This document shows positions 3,658 to 8,859 of a stretch of DNA of 32,785 nucleotides, piece after piece. Source of the stretch: a bacterium (GTDB taxonomy: Bacteria; Bacteroidota; Ignavibacteria; Kapaibacteriales; UBA2268); contig JAUIIX010000037.1 of NCBI GenBank assembly GCA_030431515.1, forward strand, positions 1-32,785, read 5' to 3'. Position 1 is the stretch's first letter, and every line of letters starts with the position of its first letter. The translations under genes were made by a program, and so were the position numbers. The notes beneath the pieces are model-generated. The model was not told the DNA's origin and did no database searches. It saw only the letters and a list, made by a program, of their open reading frames with translations.

Positions 3658-3822
3658 TTATTCTGGTTCTACACACTTGTTATGACAAGGTTTAATAACC
3701 ATATTAAATCCATTATAACATTCTGGACTAAATTGTGCTTGATATTGACTATCACAAGGTCCAACTTCTTGTAATATTTCTTCTTTAAAAGAAGTACCTA
3801 CTATAACAACTTCATGTGTCAT
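3658..3822 (-). CDS. C-terminal segment of the interrupted Cys-rich gene
   Basis: A 54-residue frame starting at an ATG that overlaps the upstream TGA as ATGA, ending in TAA at 3660-3658. It contains five cysteines (G-P-C-D, P-E-C-Y, P-C-H-N-K-C). No signal peptide and no ribosome-binding site of its own are visible. It reads as the natural end of the protein begun at 4477. Confidence 0.45.
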   Translation of the reverse strand: MTHEVVIVGTSFKEEILQEVGPCDSQYQAQFSPECYNGFNMVIKPCHNKCVEPE

Positions 3823-4361
3823 AGGGTCACAACACAGTAACTTCTTTCATAAACACAACAACTAACTTGGTTACATTCAACTTCTTCAAGAACAGTTAAA
3901 TAGGACTGAGAATCTTGATCAAAATGTTGATAATAACAAAGTGATTTGCATGACGATTTTGTTGCAGTATAATCTGATTTTAAATTTGGACAATAAGCTA
4001 GGTTAATTTCATTTTGAACTTCTAATTCGTCTACAAATTCTTGATATAACTGTAATGTTACTTCTTCCCAACATCTTAATAACCATAGTTGTCCATTAGT
4101 TTGTGGATCTGACCGCACCCATGCATTGAAATTATCACAATCGACACAAGGTTGTACAGCTTGACTCACAAAAAATACTTTAACTTGAGCTTTGTGAGGA
4201 CTTGGGGGTACAGAGCAAACTCTTTTACAGCAGTACACTTGAAAAAAGCAATTTGGCCATTCTGGTAAAGAGATAAATTTAGTTTCATATTGCCAGAGAG
4301 CATTAGGGTTATCGCAACCTATATTATCGCAATTTAGTTCATTTAGATTAGTCGAATTCAT
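3819..4361 (-). CDS. Central Cys-rich segment of the interrupted gene
   Basis: A 180-residue frame with about 20 cysteines, many in pairs or in C-x-C or C-x-x-C spacing (for example Y-C-C-K-R-V-C, and C-V-D-C-D). This suggests an extracellular disulphide-bonded protein. It has no signal peptide of its own. Its ATG overlaps the stop of the signal-peptide frame, and its TGA (3821-3819) overlaps the ATG of the C-terminal frame. It aligns loosely with the 7185-7805 paralogue around the Leu/Ile-Pro ... Cys ... Cys segment near its start. I do not recognise a named family. Confidence 0.5.
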   Translation of the reverse strand: MNSTNLNELNCDNIGCDNPNALWQYETKFISLPEWPNCFFQVYCCKRVCSVPPSPHKAQVKVFFVSQAVQPCVDCDNFNAWVRSDPQTNGQLWLLRCWEEVTLQLYQEFVDELEVQNEINLAYCPNLKSDYTATKSSCKSLCYYQHFDQDSQSYLTVLEEVECNQVSCCVYERSYCVVTL

Positions 4362-4477
4362 ATCTGCACTGGAATATAGCTTGGAGTTATTGAAATAAAA
4401 ACTTGCCCAATACTCTCCTCATTAGATATAATCAATAATGAGAAAGTAATTATTAATAATGAAATGAAATCTTTCAT
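4358..4477 (-). CDS. Signal-peptide segment of the interrupted Cys-rich gene
   Basis: A 39-residue frame with Lys-Asp then a hydrophobic core, a likely cleavage site near I-G-Q, and AAAGGA spaced correctly before the ATG at 4477. Its TGA (4360-4358) overlaps the ATG of the next frame. It is too short for a stand-alone secreted protein and is best read as the 5' part of 3658-4477. Confidence 0.5.
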   Translation of the reverse strand: MKDFISLLIITFSLLIISNEESIGQVFISITPSYIPVQI

Positions 4478-4545
4478 TTTATTTCCTTTAATAAATTTTA
4501 AATTATATGTAATAGAAATATAGACTTTTCGTCTATAGGTACGTT

Positions 4546-4562
4546 GTAGTTTTTATAACTAC
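4546..4562 (-). promoter_or_regulatory. Small conserved hairpin in leader copy A
   Basis: GTAGTT pairs with AACTAC around a five-base loop. The same sequence is unchanged in copy B at 7878-7894, while bases on either side differ. Confidence 0.55.
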
Positions 4563-4573
4563 TTTTGCATTAG

Positions 4574-4619
4574 GGTTCGCAAAAATTCTTTCATCGGGAT
4601 TTTGCGAATCTTTTTTTTT
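4574..4619. promoter_or_regulatory. Large conserved hairpin in leader copy A, terminator-like on the plus strand
   Basis: GGTTCGCAAAA (4574-4584) pairs with TTTTGCGAATC (4600-4610), 11 bp with two G-U pairs. On the plus strand nine T follow at once (4611-4619), as in an intrinsic terminator. On the minus strand, the direction of the Cys-rich gene, the A-run comes first and no U-tract follows, so there it would be a leader structure. Confidence 0.6.
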
Positions 4620-4628
4620 AATTTTTCT

Positions 4629-4640
4629 TTAAGGACTCAT
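4629..4640 (-). promoter_or_regulatory. Three-codon leader ORF (Met-Ser-Pro-stop) with GGAG, copy A
   Basis: GGAG (4650-4647), six bases, then ATG AGT CCT TAA. Motif and spacing are the same in copy B at 7963-7974. Proline before a stop codon is known to slow termination, so a regulatory stall is possible but unproven. Confidence 0.4.
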
Positions 4641-4662
4641 AATATTCTCCTTTAATAAAAAG

Positions 4663-4679
4663 CCAACATTAGTGTTTGG
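4663..4679. promoter_or_regulatory. Inverted repeat in leader copy A
   Basis: CCAACA and TGTTTGG face each other across a four-base spacer (one extra T). Copy B has the perfect form at 7997-8012. It could be an operator or an RNA hairpin. Confidence 0.4.
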
Positions 4680-4793
4680 AAAAAGTTAAAAATAGTCAAA
4701 TTTTGCATTATATATTAAACCATAATTGCAATTTAAAACATTTTTTTTTTTTTTTTGCAAATTTATTTTTAAATAATTTAAATTAGTTTTCCA

Positions 4794-4801
4794 CAAATAT
4801 A
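4794..4801 (-). promoter_or_regulatory. Candidate TAnnTTTG promoter box, copy A
   Basis: TATATTTG on the minus strand, matching the Bacteroidetes -7 consensus, within a conserved stretch (CTTATATTTGTG) also present in copy B at 8125-8132. No clear -33 TTTG is seen. It sits just past the minus-strand terminator at 4829-4853. Confidence 0.5.
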
Positions 4802-4828
4802 AGAAAAGTATTTAAATAATAGTATTAT

Positions 4829-4853
4829 AAAAAAAGAGCCATAAAAGATGGCT
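4829..4853 (-). terminator. Intrinsic terminator of the Asp-box gene
   Basis: AGCCAT/ATGGCT stem with a five-base loop followed by a T-run on the minus strand, about 40 bases after the stop codon of the 4891-7116 gene. Copy B keeps the hairpin with a changed stem (GAGCC/GGCTC), which argues for function. Confidence 0.75.
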
Positions 4854-4890
4854 TGGTTTTAATATTAATAAGATATTAAAAGCTTTGAAA

Positions 4891-7116
4891 TTAGTCAGTA
4901 ACAATAATTTTCCAAATTAACTTTTCATTTCCATAAGTAACTTGCATTATATAGATTCCGGGATTTATGTTTGAAACATCCCATGTTACTAATGCATGAT
5001 AATCATCTTCTCTGATAAGATTTACATTTCCATCTATATGAGCTTTAGAACCAAATATTGAGTAAATTTCAATGTTATCTTTATTAAAAATTAATTGGTT
5101 ATCAAATGCTACCTTCACATTAATTTGATTATTCGATGGATGAGGGTAAGGTGGATATGAAAATAAGTAGTTAAATGGTATTCTTTCAGTAACGCTTGTA
5201 TATTCAATTCCTAATTCTGATAAAGGTAATTGCAATAATTCATCATTTAATGTCATATAAAGAAAGCCTTCTACTAAATCAATATCCCTGACAGGTTGAG
5301 ATATATGAATTGAAATTTTAGTCATATCTATACCCTCATTATACATATCCCATGTAATACCAAAATCTTTTGAATAATGAAAACCATTATTTGAAATAAT
5401 AAAAATATTCTCATTGTAATTAATCATTTTAAATATGTATGCTTTTTCGTCATGGAATTTTTTAATGTCCCATGTTTCACCTAAATCTTTAGAATAAAAT
5501 AAACTATCTGACATATAATCATAGTTAAACTGATCGATTTGTGCATAAACAATTTTTGGTGAAATAATTTGATTATTATAAATAGAAATAAATTTAGTTT
5601 GTTCTTCATTTATTGCATTTTCATCTGAATTAGATATTTTATTCCATGTTTTACACTTGTCTATTGAAATTAGAATTCCATCATTTTCAGTTGTTGCAAT
5701 AAATGTTGTTTGGTTATATTTATAAACATTTCTAAAATTAATATTAAATTCAGGATTAGATTCATTGAAATTTATCCATGTCTTTGCCTTATCTGTAGAA
5801 TAAAATAACATTTTTCCAGAAGTTAAAATAATTATGTCTTCAAAAATATAAATTTGACCAAATCCATTAACTTTATAAGTAATAATGGTATCTATCCAAT
5901 TCTTTCCTAAATCTCTCGAAATTTTTAAATTATTATTATTATAATGATAAGCTATTATCAAGCTATCTTTAATATCAAAACCACTTATTTCATGTCCATT
6001 TGTACTTAATGTATCATTTAAAACTTTCCAAGTTTTTGAAATTTTGTCAAAAAAATGGATTCCATTATTTTCCATTATCATATAATTAGTATTGTTTTGA
6101 GATTTAAAGTTGAAATAATTTGGATTTCCTTCAAGATTTAAAGATTCAATGTTATTATTTTTTATTTCAAAAACTCCAAATGAACTTGTAAAATATATTT
6201 TACCTTCAATATTTTTTATAGATGTTATACTTTCGTTTTTATCAAGAAAATGTAATAACTCCCAAGATTGCCCTTGATTACTTGAAATATATATTTCACC
6301 TAACTTAGTTGAGATATAGAATTTATCAGCATCAATCAAAACGTTAGTTATATCTTTAGATACAGATGGAATAGTAATATATTCCCATTTTTCTTCTAAA
6401 CCATTTGATTTATACAACCCCTTATTTGTTCCAATTAAAGAAATATTTTTAGAAAAATAAAAGCTATTGTATAAAGCATAATTCCGTTCTAATCCTTTAT
6501 TCCATTCTTTCCATGACTTTCCTAAATCTTCACTAAATAAAATACCATCGTTATAAATTGGAGGAGGAGGATTCCCTGAAATAGCTCCTTTGTCATAAAC
6601 CACAATAATATCATCAATAAGTTTAATTTTATTAAAACCATAAGGTGTTTCGATTTTAATAGAATCAAAAACTATTGAATTAGAAATATCATACTTATAA
6701 ATATCTCTTCCTATTAGAATTAATAAAGTATCATTATAAATTTCAAAATCTTGAACAGGTTTATTTATTTTGTCACTATATATTTTTTCAAAAGAAAACC
6801 CTAAATCTTTACTTTGATAAATACCATTATTATTTAAAGAGTTACTTTCTCCTTTTAAAAAGACATTATCGTTATTTACTTTAAAGTTATAAAAATAAAT
6901 TAATGAGTCAAGACCAGTAGGATTGATTTTTTTCCAATTAATATCTTTATCATTTTTTAAAAATAATGAGTAACTATTATTTGTAATCAAAGTATTTTTT
7001 GTTTTAAAGATATCGCTAATATATATTTTTCCTTTGGGAGAATCAACTTCTTCCCATTTTGCATAATTATATATAGGTAAAAGTAAAACAATAATAAAGA
7101 ATACAGAGTTTATCAT
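4891..7116 (-). CDS. Large secreted Asp-box (BNR) beta-propeller protein with T9SS-like tail
   Basis: A 741-residue protein with a signal peptide (about residues 1-19, ending Y-N-Y-A-K-W). It has at least seven Asp-box motifs spread through the body: D-L-G-K-S-W, N-Q-G-Q-S-W, D-L-G-K-N-W, D-K-A-K-T-W, D-K-C-K-T-W, D-L-G-E-T-W and D-F-G-I-T-W. This is the pattern of sortilin/VPS10- or sialidase-type propellers, which bind glycans or proteins outside the cell. The last ~95 residues (P-H-P-S-N-N-Q-I-N-V, then I-Y-S-I-F-G-S, then P-G-I-Y-I-M-Q-V) look like a T9SS sorting domain, slightly off consensus. AAGGA precedes the ATG at 7116. It lies between the two Cys-rich genes and is closed by the terminator at 4829-4853. 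No sialidase catalytic arginines were identified, so an enzymatic role is not claimed. Confidence 0.75.
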   Translation of the reverse strand: MINSVFFIIVLLLPIYNYAKWEEVDSPKGKIYISDIFKTKNTLITNNSYSLFLKNDKDINWKKINPTGLDSLIYFYNFKVNNDNVFLKGESNSLNNNGIYQSKDLGFSFEKIYSDKINKPVQDFEIYNDTLLILIGRDIYKYDISNSIVFDSIKIETPYGFNKIKLIDDIIVVYDKGAISGNPPPPIYNDGILFSEDLGKSWKEWNKGLERNYALYNSFYFSKNISLIGTNKGLYKSNGLEEKWEYITIPSVSKDITNVLIDADKFYISTKLGEIYISSNQGQSWELLHFLDKNESITSIKNIEGKIYFTSSFGVFEIKNNNIESLNLEGNPNYFNFKSQNNTNYMIMENNGIHFFDKISKTWKVLNDTLSTNGHEISGFDIKDSLIIAYHYNNNNLKISRDLGKNWIDTIITYKVNGFGQIYIFEDIIILTSGKMLFYSTDKAKTWINFNESNPEFNINFRNVYKYNQTTFIATTENDGILISIDKCKTWNKISNSDENAINEEQTKFISIYNNQIISPKIVYAQIDQFNYDYMSDSLFYSKDLGETWDIKKFHDEKAYIFKMINYNENIFIISNNGFHYSKDFGITWDMYNEGIDMTKISIHISQPVRDIDLVEGFLYMTLNDELLQLPLSELGIEYTSVTERIPFNYLFSYPPYPHPSNNQINVKVAFDNQLIFNKDNIEIYSIFGSKAHIDGNVNLIREDDYHALVTWDVSNINPGIYIMQVTYGNEKLIWKIIVTD

Positions 7117-7138
7117 AAAAATTCCTTAAGTTTAATTT

Positions 7139-7167
7139 GAAGAGTTAGTTATTAATACTAACTCTTC
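7139..7167 (-). terminator. Hairpin after the second Cys-rich gene
   Basis: A perfect 11-bp stem (GAAGAGTTAGT with its complement) and a seven-base loop, directly after the final TAG of the 7185-7805 reading frame and before the Asp-box gene. The U-tract on the minus strand is poor (CAAATTAA), so it may be a 3' stability hairpin rather than a strong terminator. Confidence 0.5.
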
Positions 7168-7184
7168 ATTAATATAAATTTATT

Positions 7185-7805
7185 CTATGGGTTACAAAGA
7201 GTATTGACTTTAAAGCATCCAGATCCATGTTCTCCAAAAAGTGGACAATCTGGAATTTCACCTACTACAACATTACTTCCAGGTACTAAATAACGAGTTA
7301 CAGCAGTACCATTTGGATCGGGTTTACAATATTTATAAGTTACTTCACATTAGTCTTCATAATTATCTGTACATGGTCTTACCTTATCTGGTCCTCCATA
7401 CTCTTCAAAACAAAACCGATATTTGAAAGTTACTTGTTGCCAAGTACTAGGATCACTATTGCAAGGAGGAGGATTAAACCATGAACATAATTCATTAAAA
7501 ACAAATTGAGCTGAAGAAACATAATCTCTTATATAAGGAATAGCTAAATCCCAATCATAAGGTGGTGGACAAGAACCTTATTGAGCTTGAATAGTTTCAT
7601 CAAAAATTACTACAGGTCCAGGTGCAGTAGGATCGCATTTATAACAAACTTCTATTGTATACATACAACCATTAAATGGTATATGTACTACTTTAGTAGA
7701 ATATGAAGCATCAGGACAAGTTACTGCTTCACAATAGTTATTAGAAATTATTAAAAAAGCTATAGATAATAGCATTGATGTAAATAAATTCTTTGTAATT
7801 TTCAT
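7185..7805 (-). pseudogene. Second Cys-rich secreted protein gene, with two in-frame TAA codons
   Basis: One continuous minus-strand frame of 207 codons runs from an ATG at 7805 (AAAGGAAAA upstream) to a TAG at 7187-7185. It is interrupted by TAA at 7580-7578 (codon 76) and TAA at 7352-7350 (codon 152). The pieces are 75, 75 and 54 residues. Each reads as sensible Cys-rich secreted sequence, for example C-E-V-T-Y-K-Y-C right after the second stop. No frame change is needed, so two point substitutions would explain it. It is a distant paralogue of 3658-4477: both have a signal peptide, an early I-P ... C ... V-C-Y-K-C type segment, a late C-x-V-x-Y segment, and the same upstream cassette. Pseudogene is the simplest reading; stop readthrough is the alternative. 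Confidence 0.65.
7578..7805 (-). CDS. N-terminal segment of the second Cys-rich gene
   Basis: A 75-residue product up to the first TAA. It has a signal peptide (two Lys near the start, hydrophobic core to about residue 21, likely cleavage near C-E-A) and then about 50 residues with four cysteines (V-T-C-P, N-G-C-M, E-V-C-Y-K-C). It could be made and secreted as a short protein. However, the reading frame continues open and Cys-rich beyond the stop, which suggests it is a truncated part of a ~206-residue protein. Confidence 0.55.
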   Translation of the reverse strand: MKITKNLFTSMLLSIAFLIISNNYCEAVTCPDASYSTKVVHIPFNGCMYTIEVCYKCDPTAPGPVVIFDETIQAQ

Positions 7806-7877
7806 TTTATTTTCCTTTTTAAGTTTTTAAATTATTTAAGAAATAAAGGCGTAAGAAAATCGTCTATAGGTACGAAT

Positions 7878-7894
7878 GTAGTTTTTATAACTAC
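7878..7894 (-). promoter_or_regulatory. Small conserved hairpin in leader copy B
   Basis: GTAGTT/AACTAC with a five-base loop, identical to 4546-4562. Confidence 0.55.
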
Positions 7895-7905
7895 TTTTGC
7901 AATAT

Positions 7906-7953
7906 GGTTCGCAAAAATTCTTTGGTTGGGATTTTGCGAATCTTTTTTTTTTT
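7906..7953. promoter_or_regulatory. Large conserved hairpin in leader copy B
   Basis: GGTTCGCAAAA (7906-7916) pairs with TTTTGCGAATC (7932-7942); eleven T follow on the plus strand (7943-7953). The stem is unchanged from copy A, but the loop differs, which favours a structural role. Confidence 0.6.
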
Positions 7954-7962
7954 GTGTTTTGT

Positions 7963-7974
7963 TTAAGGACTCAT
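7963..7974 (-). promoter_or_regulatory. Three-codon leader ORF (Met-Ser-Pro-stop) with GGAG, copy B
   Basis: GGGAG, six bases, ATG AGT CCT TAA, as in copy A at 4629-4640. Confidence 0.4.
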
Positions 7975-7996
7975 AAAATTCTCCCTTTAAATAAAA

Positions 7997-8012
7997 CCAA
8001 CATTTGTGTTGG
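7997..8012. promoter_or_regulatory. Perfect inverted repeat in leader copy B
   Basis: CCAACA, four bases, TGTTGG. Corresponds to the imperfect form at 4663-4679. Confidence 0.45.
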
Positions 8013-8124
8013 GAAAAAGTTAAAAATAGTCAATATTATTATTTATTGCTAAATGATAAGTGCAATATAAGACATTTTTTTTTTTTTGCAAATTTTATTT
8101 TAGTTAATTTTAAATAGTTTTACA

Positions 8125-8132
8125 CAAATATA
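8125..8132 (-). promoter_or_regulatory. Candidate TAnnTTTG promoter box, copy B
   Basis: TATATTTG on the minus strand at the same place in the cassette as 4794-4801. Confidence 0.5.
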
Positions 8133-8159
8133 AGAAATGTATTTAAATAATAGTATTAT

Positions 8160-8185
8160 AAAAAAAGAGCCATAAAAAAAGGCTC
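8160..8185 (-). terminator. Terminator hairpin without an upstream minus-strand gene
   Basis: GAGCC/GGCTC stem followed by T7 on the minus strand. It corresponds to the Asp-box gene terminator in copy A, but here the adjoining gene (8212-8859) is on the plus strand, so it has nothing to terminate. Confidence 0.6.
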
Positions 8186-8211
8186 GGTTTGAATATTAAT
8201 AAGTTGGAAAT

Positions 8212-8859
8212 ATGTTAAAAATAATAGTTAGTATAATAATGATGATTTTTGTTGTGTCTTGCACTCAACATAAAGCAAGGAATCAAAAAGAATTAGTTGA
8301 TATGATACATAAAGGGATTCCTAATCCAAAATCTAAATATAAGTTGGATATTAAGACTAAAATCAAAGATAGTGGTAAGTTTAGTCATATCAAAGATGGT
8401 GTTAGTGATTTGATTGAAGCAGATGCTTGGGGTGAAATTGTCGAGTTTGGAGAAGATTATGCTGTTTGGATTGAAAATTATAACCGTTATTCAATTGACT
8501 CAAACATTAAGAAAATCACTTTCAATCTTTCAATTACTAAAAAGTCAATGTGGTCAAGAAAGGAAAATATTCTAAGTAAAAAAATTGAACTTGAATATAA
8601 TATTGGAGAGGACTGGTTGGATTATCAGAAAGATGCAGATGAGAATAAGTTATTTAAAGCATTAGATAATACTTTAAGTGATATAAAGATAGAAGGTGAT
8701 TATGACTTTATTAGAAATATTGTAAACATAATTAGCAAGTCAGTTAAAAACGCTCGAATGGAATTTGAAATAGATAAAGAAGATATTGTAGAAAAATATG
8801 TAATATCAGGATATACATATATTGAACTAAAAAAAATGATTCTGAAGTTAGAAAATTAA
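8212..8859 (+). CDS. Lipoprotein of unknown function
   Basis: A 215-residue protein with a short hydrophobic N-terminus and a lipobox (V-V-S-C, Cys17), so probably lipid-anchored in the inner or outer membrane. The mature part is charged, rich in Lys, Asp, Glu and Ile, with no motif I recognise. A segment around residues 100-130 alternates like beta strands (K-K-I-T-F-N-L-S-I-T) and the end looks helical. A weak TTGGAAA precedes the ATG at 8212. It is the only plus-strand gene in the secreted block and begins only nine bases beyond cassette copy B, which suggests it was placed there after the cassette duplicated. No partner gene is nearby. Confidence 0.65.
   Translation: MLKIIVSIIMMIFVVSCTQHKARNQKELVDMIHKGIPNPKSKYKLDIKTKIKDSGKFSHIKDGVSDLIEADAWGEIVEFGEDYAVWIENYNRYSIDSNIKKITFNLSITKKSMWSRKENILSKKIELEYNIGEDWLDYQKDADENKLFKALDNTLSDIKIEGDYDFIRNIVNIISKSVKNARMEFEIDKEDIVEKYVISGYTYIELKKMILKLEN

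Follow-up and report, generated by a model that had tools for sequence, protein, structure and literature searches.

Secreted Cys-rich genes of a Kapabacteria-like bacterium as candidate contingency loci, with putatively slippage-prone promoters and a predicted convergent antisense RNA

The window analysed here, a 32,785-nucleotide stretch of contig JAUIIX010000037.1, carries two cassettes of ~345 bp on its minus strand, cassette a at 4530–4874 and cassette b at 7861–8203, each in front of a Cys-rich gene. They align in register with 86% identity over 344 query bases (E=1.7e-110); a more extended alignment puts the mean column identity at 84%. All elements that a preliminary description had named are present in the order it gave. 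Each begins with the same terminator hairpin and T run: that of cassette a (4829–4853, minus strand) lies 3' of a BNR-repeat protein gene with a type IX secretion sorting domain (4891–7116, minus strand), while that of cassette b (8160–8185, minus strand) has no gene ending upstream, the neighbour at 8212–8859 being divergent.

The genes behind the cassettes are Cys-rich, as had been described, but both are broken. The one behind b (7188–7805, minus strand) contains two in-frame TAA codons and is followed by the BNR-repeat gene; the remnant behind a (3819–4361, minus strand) does not share the frame of the signal peptide beginning at 4477. Reassignment of TAA, which occurs in both leader and gene, was rejected on the intact gene copies c and e, which make pseudogene decay the simpler account. 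As both window genes are broken, cassettes a and b may be relics. By inspection, the cassette genes encode signal peptides and hence secreted products. The secreted Cys-rich family gave no Pfam, NCBIfam or PDB match; its genes are often followed by a BNR/type-IX-secretion gene, and the partners of b and e carry the sorting domain PF18962.

A genome search uncovered at least four further copies in the same genome (C117 3667–4040; the C117 ends; C11 after secA; and the C128 end plus C155 start), giving copies a to f, of which d and f are each split across contig ends. The secA product of this genome has Candidatus Kapaibacterium sp. as its best named relative (64%). Weaker genome matches below the six copies (L009–L021) proved by eye to be other promoters and AT-rich stretches. 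The cassette was also considered as coding sequence on account of a peptide-like run in another frame, but by eye its changes are non-synonymous and the frame is shifted in copy a.

That the cassettes stay alike while the coding regions behind them have diverged strongly is borne out: the leader from the Shine–Dalgarno (SD) sequence to hairpin 4 (H4) is 85–98% identical across 15 copy pairs, against a synonymous dS of 0.8–1.3 in the mature coding regions. The signal-peptide DNA is conserved as well. Copy a is a mosaic: its far end most resembles b (91% versus 83% to e), and past H4 it is nearest to e (99% versus 80%). The pattern is one of duplication with gene-conversion-like mosaics. The cassette is the promoter–leader module of the secreted Cys-rich gene family.

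The TATATTTG box of cassettes a (4794–4801, minus strand) and b (8125–8132, minus strand), which the preliminary description had listed, does match a Bacteroidota -7 box. About 35 nt further on, however, there is a more complete promoter made up of TTTGC, the A tract and TAnnTTG. In cassette a it spans 4729–4761 (minus strand; TTTGC 4757–4761, 16-A tract 4741–4756, -7 box TAAATTG 4729–4735, spacer 22), and in cassette b 8063–8092 (minus strand; TTTGC 8088–8092, 13-A tract 8075–8087, -7 box TATATTG 8063–8069, spacer 19). The A tract is thus the spacer between the TTTGC (-33) and TAnnTTG (-7) boxes in all six cassettes, which places the tract inside the promoter as in SSR-type phase-variable promoters. 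The length differences expected of such promoters are found between copies within one genome: 16, 13, 10, 12, 10 and 12 A in a to f. Spacers are 22 in a, 16 in e and 18–19 in b, c, d and f; six other promoter-like sites of the same genome have 18–20. Runs of at least 10 A or T are scarce, with 5 in 81.7 kb of the genome's own DNA (a sample that included the window and the C128 end), of which 3 are cassette promoter tracts and 1 is the opposite-strand T run of b. The A tract, merely listed before, is probably the most important element of the cassette.

Downstream in the leader, the A-run, 11-bp hairpin and 6-bp hairpin read on the opposite strand as a two-hairpin RNA with an intrinsic terminator at its end, similar to the unit seen on that strand at homologs (below). 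The predicted antisense RNA of cassette a would span 4546–4619 (plus strand; H4 4546–4562, terminator stem 4576–4584/4600–4608, T run 4611–4619) and that of cassette b 7878–7953 (plus strand; H4 7878–7894, terminator stem 7908–7916/7932–7940, T run 7943–7953). The opposite-strand terminator is present in six of six cassettes, at -129 to -140. None of the six has a TAnnTTTG box at a fitting distance on that strand. The candidates there are instead TACTTTTG (4560–4567 in a, 7892–7899 in b, plus strand), which is too near the terminator in a, b and e, and CGTCTATAG, a candidate antisense -10 at 4530–4538 in a and 7861–7869 in b (plus strand), where CGTCTA.AG recurs in 6/6 copies and CGTCTA may be an ECF-type -10.

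The earlier claim that stems are kept while loops change holds for these hairpins. None of the 30 stem columns counted (9 + 6 pairs of the 11- and 6-bp hairpins) varies, against 7 of 15 columns in the first hairpin's loop and 25 of 106 from the SD to H4 (hypergeometric 6e-5 for stem constancy, neighbouring columns being non-independent). Since the stems show no change at all, the check for covariation within the cassettes found none. The first inverted repeat, H1 (pair analysis: 4663–4679 in a, where it is imperfect, and 7997–8012 in b, minus strand), does not stand as a kept element, with 4 of 30 pair cells broken without compensation; H1 and the SD/anti-SD hairpins were both dropped as conserved structures for broken, uncompensated pairs. 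Composition-corrected folding gave no strand preference among the six cassettes, the opposite strand being lower in three of them; in relatives it was lower in 18 of 22 sequences, which had been picked on that strand.

Support from beyond the cassettes comes from 64 Cys-rich homologs without a cassette in 29 genomes of the order, 5 of them from the cassette-bearing genome, whose leaders are unrelated in sequence to the cassette. They were compared with 122 control genes preceded by a gap of at least 150 nt, two of which adjoin the window's cassettes; the idea arose on 21 homologs, and the remaining 43 served as a hold-out against the same controls. Perfect repeats of unit 2–15 lie upstream of 24/64 homologs versus 1/122 controls (p=5e-12, the 64 loci being non-independent in that they come from just 29 genomes), and upstream of 2/246 of all control genes and 0/63 secreted-like ones. 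The enrichment persists in the hold-out (14/43, p=1e-8) and without the five own-genome homologs (21/59). Simple repeats were found in 13 of the 29 genomes, the own genome included; the repeat threshold was 12, below which cassettes c and e (10 A) fall. Like the cassette A tract, the repeats of five homologs (L109, L110, L113, L141 and L142) directly adjoin a TTTG[C/G] box; for the others a promoter position is putative. Two homologs of the own genome, L040 and L042, have (TA)11 and (TA)10 four nt 5' of a TATATTTG and a TATACTTG box, respectively.

A promoter-plus-terminator unit (stem at least 9) on the opposite strand precedes 18/64 homologs versus 0/122 controls (7.6e-10), including 11 of the 43 hold-out loci; on the same strand it precedes 0/64, or 1/64 at a stem of at least 8. 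It occurs in 10 of 29 genomes and in none of the five own-genome homologs without a cassette. A terminator with a stem of at least 12 bp at -100 to -190 on the opposite strand likewise marks 18/64 homologs and 0/122 controls, and in part of the homologs a TAnnTTTG box lies on that strand 45–125 nt before the terminator end. The -7 boxes follow the same polarity (19/23 on the opposite strand versus 8/23 on the same strand). Neither repeat nor unit was found at 25 of the 64 homologs.

Covariation in one genus (five sequences) comprised five pairs changed on both sides, four of them from one sequence; 1 of 500 shuffles scored equally high and slid controls gave 0–2, while the RNAalifold covariation term was not favourable (0.08). 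A second set of five sequences held one compensated pair. The preliminary description's selected, undescribed structured leader finds its support mainly outside the window, in this covariation and in those homologs that share no sequence similarity with the cassette but keep a hairpin element in the corresponding position; judged from box and hairpin polarity, the strand transcribed there is likely the opposite one. It had looked to covariation and to copies in relatives as decisive: the cassette sequence offers neither, there being no copy among 53 other genomes of the family, but the architecture recurs in relatives, with some covariation in one genus.

We lean, by a little more than an even chance, towards contingency loci in which slippage-prone promoters and a predicted convergent antisense RNA govern secreted Cys-rich genes in this Kapabacteria-like bacterium. 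The order along the sequence is A-tract promoter, long leader with SD and micro-ORF, opposite-strand two-hairpin terminator element, and SD with signal peptide. Slippage in the A tract would shift the spacer into or out of its working range and so switch the gene on or off, with a (22) and e (16) predicted to be off and b, c, d and f (18–19) on. Where the sense transcript is present, a convergent RNA of ~75 nt would pair with the leader and damp translation or elongation. This pairing could prefer its own copy, because the stems are constant and the loops differ between copies. Duplication and gene conversion would keep the leaders alike within the genome while the secreted bodies diverge. A more speculative and rather doubtful extension makes this a family-wide diversity system: each paralog would combine a slippage promoter with a copy-preferring antisense RNA whose loop sets specificity, paralogs sharing a leader would silence themselves or each other, and the Cys-rich bodies downstream of the constant 5' module would be swapped and diversified by gene conversion, with broken copies as donors.

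It is also conceivable, though improbable, that a promoter and 5' UTR were simply duplicated and remain alike through age and gene conversion, acting as nothing more than an ordinary promoter, with a reverse terminator that just stops antisense noise. Copies confined to 1 of 54 genomes searched, the mosaic pattern, the conserved signal-peptide DNA, the lack of covariation inside cassettes and the broken window genes all fit this account, but it leaves unexplained why repeats and opposite-strand units are enriched across the order at leaders of unrelated sequence, and why stems stay constant beside variable loops.

The micro-ORF raises the unlikely alternative of a sense-strand attenuator, in which ribosomes on MSP* would refold the downstream hairpins and set access to the second SD (SD2), much as at tetQ. 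The micro-ORF ATGAGTCCTTAA lies at 4629–4640 in a (minus strand, SD 4647–4650) and 7963–7974 in b (minus strand, SD 7981–7985). An SD with a three-codon ORF, as first described, is kept in 5/6 copies, but in copy e the frame stays open for 26 codons; the SD is altered in copy d. SD-bearing micro-ORFs, counted from ATG starts with GTG starts seen by eye left out, are enriched at -300 to -130 (13/64 homologs versus 8/122 controls, p=0.006; 1/64 on the opposite strand), and by eye several end at an A-run (MTPT*, MKPT*). Over wider limits (-350 to -60), however, the enrichment is weak (14/64 versus 13/122, p=0.03). In silico, covering the micro-ORF brought no consistent release of SD2 across the six copies, and SD2–micro-ORF pairing was strong solely in copy e; A-run/hairpin polarity and the -7 boxes point to the opposite strand. 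The tetQ leader encodes a three-residue leader peptide, and its long leader, three-codon ORF and hairpins resemble the cassette, which differs in having a main SD that folding leaves without consistent sequestering in the six copies, and in its opposite-strand unit. The tetQ leader attenuator of CTnDOT in Bacteroides is listed in a review table (PMC5418344).

A mobile regulatory module or unknown riboswitch, suggested by the high copy identity and structured leader, is very improbable and already largely refuted: the copies found all precede genes for Cys-containing secreted proteins in a single genome, the searches gave none at an unrelated gene or in the 53 other genomes of the family, and the cassettes have no Rfam gathering match, no covariation and no sense-strand terminator within 330 nt 5' of the gene. 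The earlier view that no known riboswitch class fits was correct, with no Rfam 15 match at gathering thresholds in the window or in 20 homolog loci; at E<=1 there was one sub-threshold match for copy a and none for copy e. The hairpin pattern had no exact match in viral and 84,980-species collections, from which records near the own genome were possibly left out.

Among systems with promoter phase variation by simple sequence repeats, the nearest layout is that of the Vlp lipoproteins of Mycoplasma hyorhinis, which have poly-A in the promoter and clustered paralogs with a conserved 5' module and signal peptide but diverged bodies. All these traits recur here; the present loci differ in their Bacteroidota-type -33/-7 promoter, secreted Cys-rich and type IX genes, predicted opposite-strand RNA unit and, in homologs, many repeat unit types, with switching inferred from sequence. 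Haemophilus influenzae fimbriae carry TA repeats in a variable divergent promoter region, and the TA repeats of L040 and L042 would act as spacers in like manner, but with another sigma consensus and no single bidirectional promoter for two protein genes. At pilE of Neisseria, antisense or cis small RNAs have been described (PMC4402397, PMC3547852). As predicted for the present loci, the RNA lies next to a gene from a surface-protein family that varies; the meningococcal RNA is antisense and reaches the 5' UTR. In PMC4402397 it is transcribed from a promoter located 3' of the gene and spans the whole gene, whereas the RNA predicted here is short and ends within the leader at a terminator of its own.

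Our search of open-licence literature found no paper on this system and none linking Kapabacteria to phase variation, and within that literature we regard it as undescribed. Simple-repeat phase variation is known mainly from host-associated bacteria; the setting here is a secreted-protein family in a lineage near Candidatus Kapaibacterium. Judging by the genomes compared, a similar layout is seen at many related genes in other species, with start regions of different sequence. If the proposed reading is true, these loci would define a small-RNA class by place and architecture instead of sequence, and would offer a test case for the joint action of antisense RNA and slippage promoters.

The leaders of these Cys-rich genes form a family defined by place and layout: a repeat promoter, a micro-ORF and an opposite-strand two-hairpin unit. 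The two minus-strand leader cassettes of the preliminary description (a, 4530-4874; b, 7861-8203) do exist and align in register, and a search of this genome's 160 contigs found six copies. Contig C117 carries c and d, C11 carries e immediately after secA, and f lies partly at the C128 end and partly at the C155 start. On the same genome, a covariance model spanning the inverted repeat H1 to the 6-bp hairpin H4 returned the same six, together with a truncated match, which corresponds to d's other end, and a weak one (E 0.23). A covariance-model search of 53 other genomes of the family, under stricter filters, gave no copies. Likewise, the hairpin pattern had no exact match in 84,980-species or viral collections, from which records very near this genome were possibly left out. 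The 8-kb contig C117 (locus L022) has ends, 1-127 and 7894-8020, that overlap exactly within a cassette, over 127 nt, which suggests a tandem array, a circle or an assembly loop; contigs C128 and C155 likewise terminate in cassette sequence.

Behind cassettes b, c and e lie genes for the same type of secreted Cys-rich protein (56-61% identity among them); f is followed by a diverged relative, d by a different secreted protein that contains Cys and is missed by the family profile, and a by a broken Cys-rich remnant. Behind a (window 3660-4480), the signal peptide is a near-perfect copy of e's (58 of 60 nt) and the body is a different Cys-rich sequence, out of frame. A large gene follows the Cys-rich gene in b, c, e and f. 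The large genes behind b and e, the two scanned, encode BNR repeats plus a type IX secretion sorting domain; the one behind c shares 45-47% identity with both, and the one behind f 28% with its counterpart in e. Of 123 genomes of the order, 37 have the Cys-rich family (E<=1e-5). Pfam had no match for the four Cys-rich proteins scanned, NCBIfam none for nine of nine family members, and PDB no relative of the profile at E<=1. The genome's secA is nearest to Candidatus Kapaibacterium (64%). This genome carries four tRNA-Cys(GCA) genes (L022 303-374, L022 4091-4162, L024 3351-3424 and L025 8601-8672), three of which directly adjoin cassettes c, d and f in divergent orientation; the fourth lies beyond the genes that follow f. 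The arrangement looks as though tRNA-Cys was duplicated together with the Cys-rich genes.

Synonymous changes are close to saturation in the mature Cys-rich regions (dS 0.8-1.3), and the leader from the Shine-Dalgarno (SD) site to H4 is 85-98% identical over the 15 pairs of copies. The genes' first 60 nt are 90-97% identical among a, c, e and f and 88-90% identical to L040, a homolog without a cassette; signal-peptide DNA of these five is 88-97% identical, synonymous sites included. Judged from sequence, the copies look like mosaics. Cassette a is closest to b far upstream (91%, versus 83% to e), to e from SD to H4 (94%, versus 89% to b) and again to e after H4 (99%, versus 80% to b). Before the promoter, cassette d matches c at 87-96%, and from promoter to H4 it matches f at 98-100%, a mosaic that depends on d's assembly join, the C128 end overlapping the same contig end too, by 65 nt. 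Exchange between copies thus accounts for part of their likeness. In the conserved part, none of 30 stem columns is variable, versus 7 of 15 loop columns of the 11-bp hairpin H3. In some other genomes, such as G032 (L062, L117, L123, L127 and L138) and G006 (L072 and L126), several paralogs apparently share a leader type peculiar to their genome, as with the cassette here.

A published study (PMC7366714) gives the sigma-ABfr consensus as TTTG near -33 and TAnnTTTG near -7, and states that no -33 element was found in Flavobacterium johnsoniae. The cassettes have TTTGC, then an A tract, then TAnnTTG, with spacers of 22 (a), 19 (b), 18 (c, d and f) and 16 (e). Six promoter-like sites at weak cassette-match loci have spacers of 18-20, two of them preceding tRNA genes (L010, L015); a seventh such locus, L017, has spacers of 17 and 23.

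We required at least 300 nt upstream and no cassette, which left 64 of 75 distinct homolog starts for analysis; five that are copies of the cassette (a, b, c, e and f) and six with too little DNA dropped out. Five of the 64 come from this genome. None of their leaders matched the cassette query or covariance model. A perfect repeat of unit 2-15 lies upstream of 24 of the 64, versus 1 of 122 control genes with an upstream gap of at least 150 nt, two of which adjoin the window's own cassettes. The repeats include (TA)7-11, GCTTATAT x7-8, GAACTCC x12, GAACACC x11, AATCCCG x11, TCCAAA x10 and AAATT x6, and in five homologs begin directly after a TTTG[C/G] box. Frequencies were 2/246 among all control genes, 0/63 among secreted-like controls with no gap filter, 21/59 without own-genome members and 14/43 in a hold-out of homologs outside the 21 of 64 first looked at, set against the same controls. 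At least one repeat-bearing homolog was present in 13 of 29 genomes.

The micro-ORF, defined as SD, ATG, 2-16 codons and stop, was counted at -300 to -130 in 13/64 homologs versus 8/122 controls (p=0.006), and on the opposite strand in 1/64 homologs; with wider limits of -350 to -60 the figures are 14/64 versus 13/122 (p=0.03). By eye, MSP* in the cassettes and MTPT* and MKPT* in relatives terminate near the A-run. The micro-ORF had no consistent effect on the second SD in silico, and may act as a control layer in its own right. Alone among the six copies, e has an open 26-codon frame replacing MSP* (MSPLRKIKKKIRKIPIKEFLRTPLQK; L023 10519-10599), ending at H4. By eye, four loci of one genus (L054, L057, L112 and L141) share a further conserved leader block, ATGAATCCATCAA..CACTCAACAGGAGG, in which GGAGG may sit in a hairpin loop and is followed by short frames that start with GTG.

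Antisense to the gene, an intrinsic terminator, seen as an A-run and then a stem of at least 12 bp at -100 to -190, was found in 18/64 homologs versus 0/122 controls. Where such a hairpin, here of at least 10 bp, lay within 300 nt, an opposite-strand TAnnTTTG box stood between hairpin and gene in 19 of 23 homologs, versus 8 of 23 on the same strand and 13 of 41 homologs without hairpin. The full opposite-strand unit (TAnnTTTG box, 45-125 nt, terminator with a stem of at least 9) was present in 18/64 homologs, 11/43 of the hold-out, none of the five own-genome homologs and 0/122 controls; on the same strand it was found in 0/64 homologs, or 1/64 at stem 8. The predicted RNAs, 60-118 nt, mostly comprise a 5' hairpin joined by a short linker to a terminator hairpin. 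The unit and its -7 box are by eye the leader's best conserved block in three genomes of one genus. With two more sequences of that genus, this set gave five compensated pairs (1 of 500 shuffles scored as high), four of them from a single sequence, and RNAalifold gave no favourable covariation term in the genus set; five sequences from a second genome gave one compensated pair. The cassettes' opposite strand has the same layout, H4, H3 and T9-11, with no TAnnTTTG box at the right distance in any of the six; CGTCTA.AG just before H4, identical in all six, might be an ECF-type -10. By folding energy the opposite strand is the more stable one in six of six cassettes, and likewise in 20 of 22 relatives, which had been chosen on that strand; corrected for composition, relatives first, that strand is favoured in 18 of 22 and three of six.

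Not every member has all parts, 25 of the 64 homologs having neither repeat nor unit. What we computed are the enrichments, copy numbers, spacers and mosaics; the switch and the antisense RNA we infer. In our working model for this leader family, slippage switching would be combined with antisense damping.
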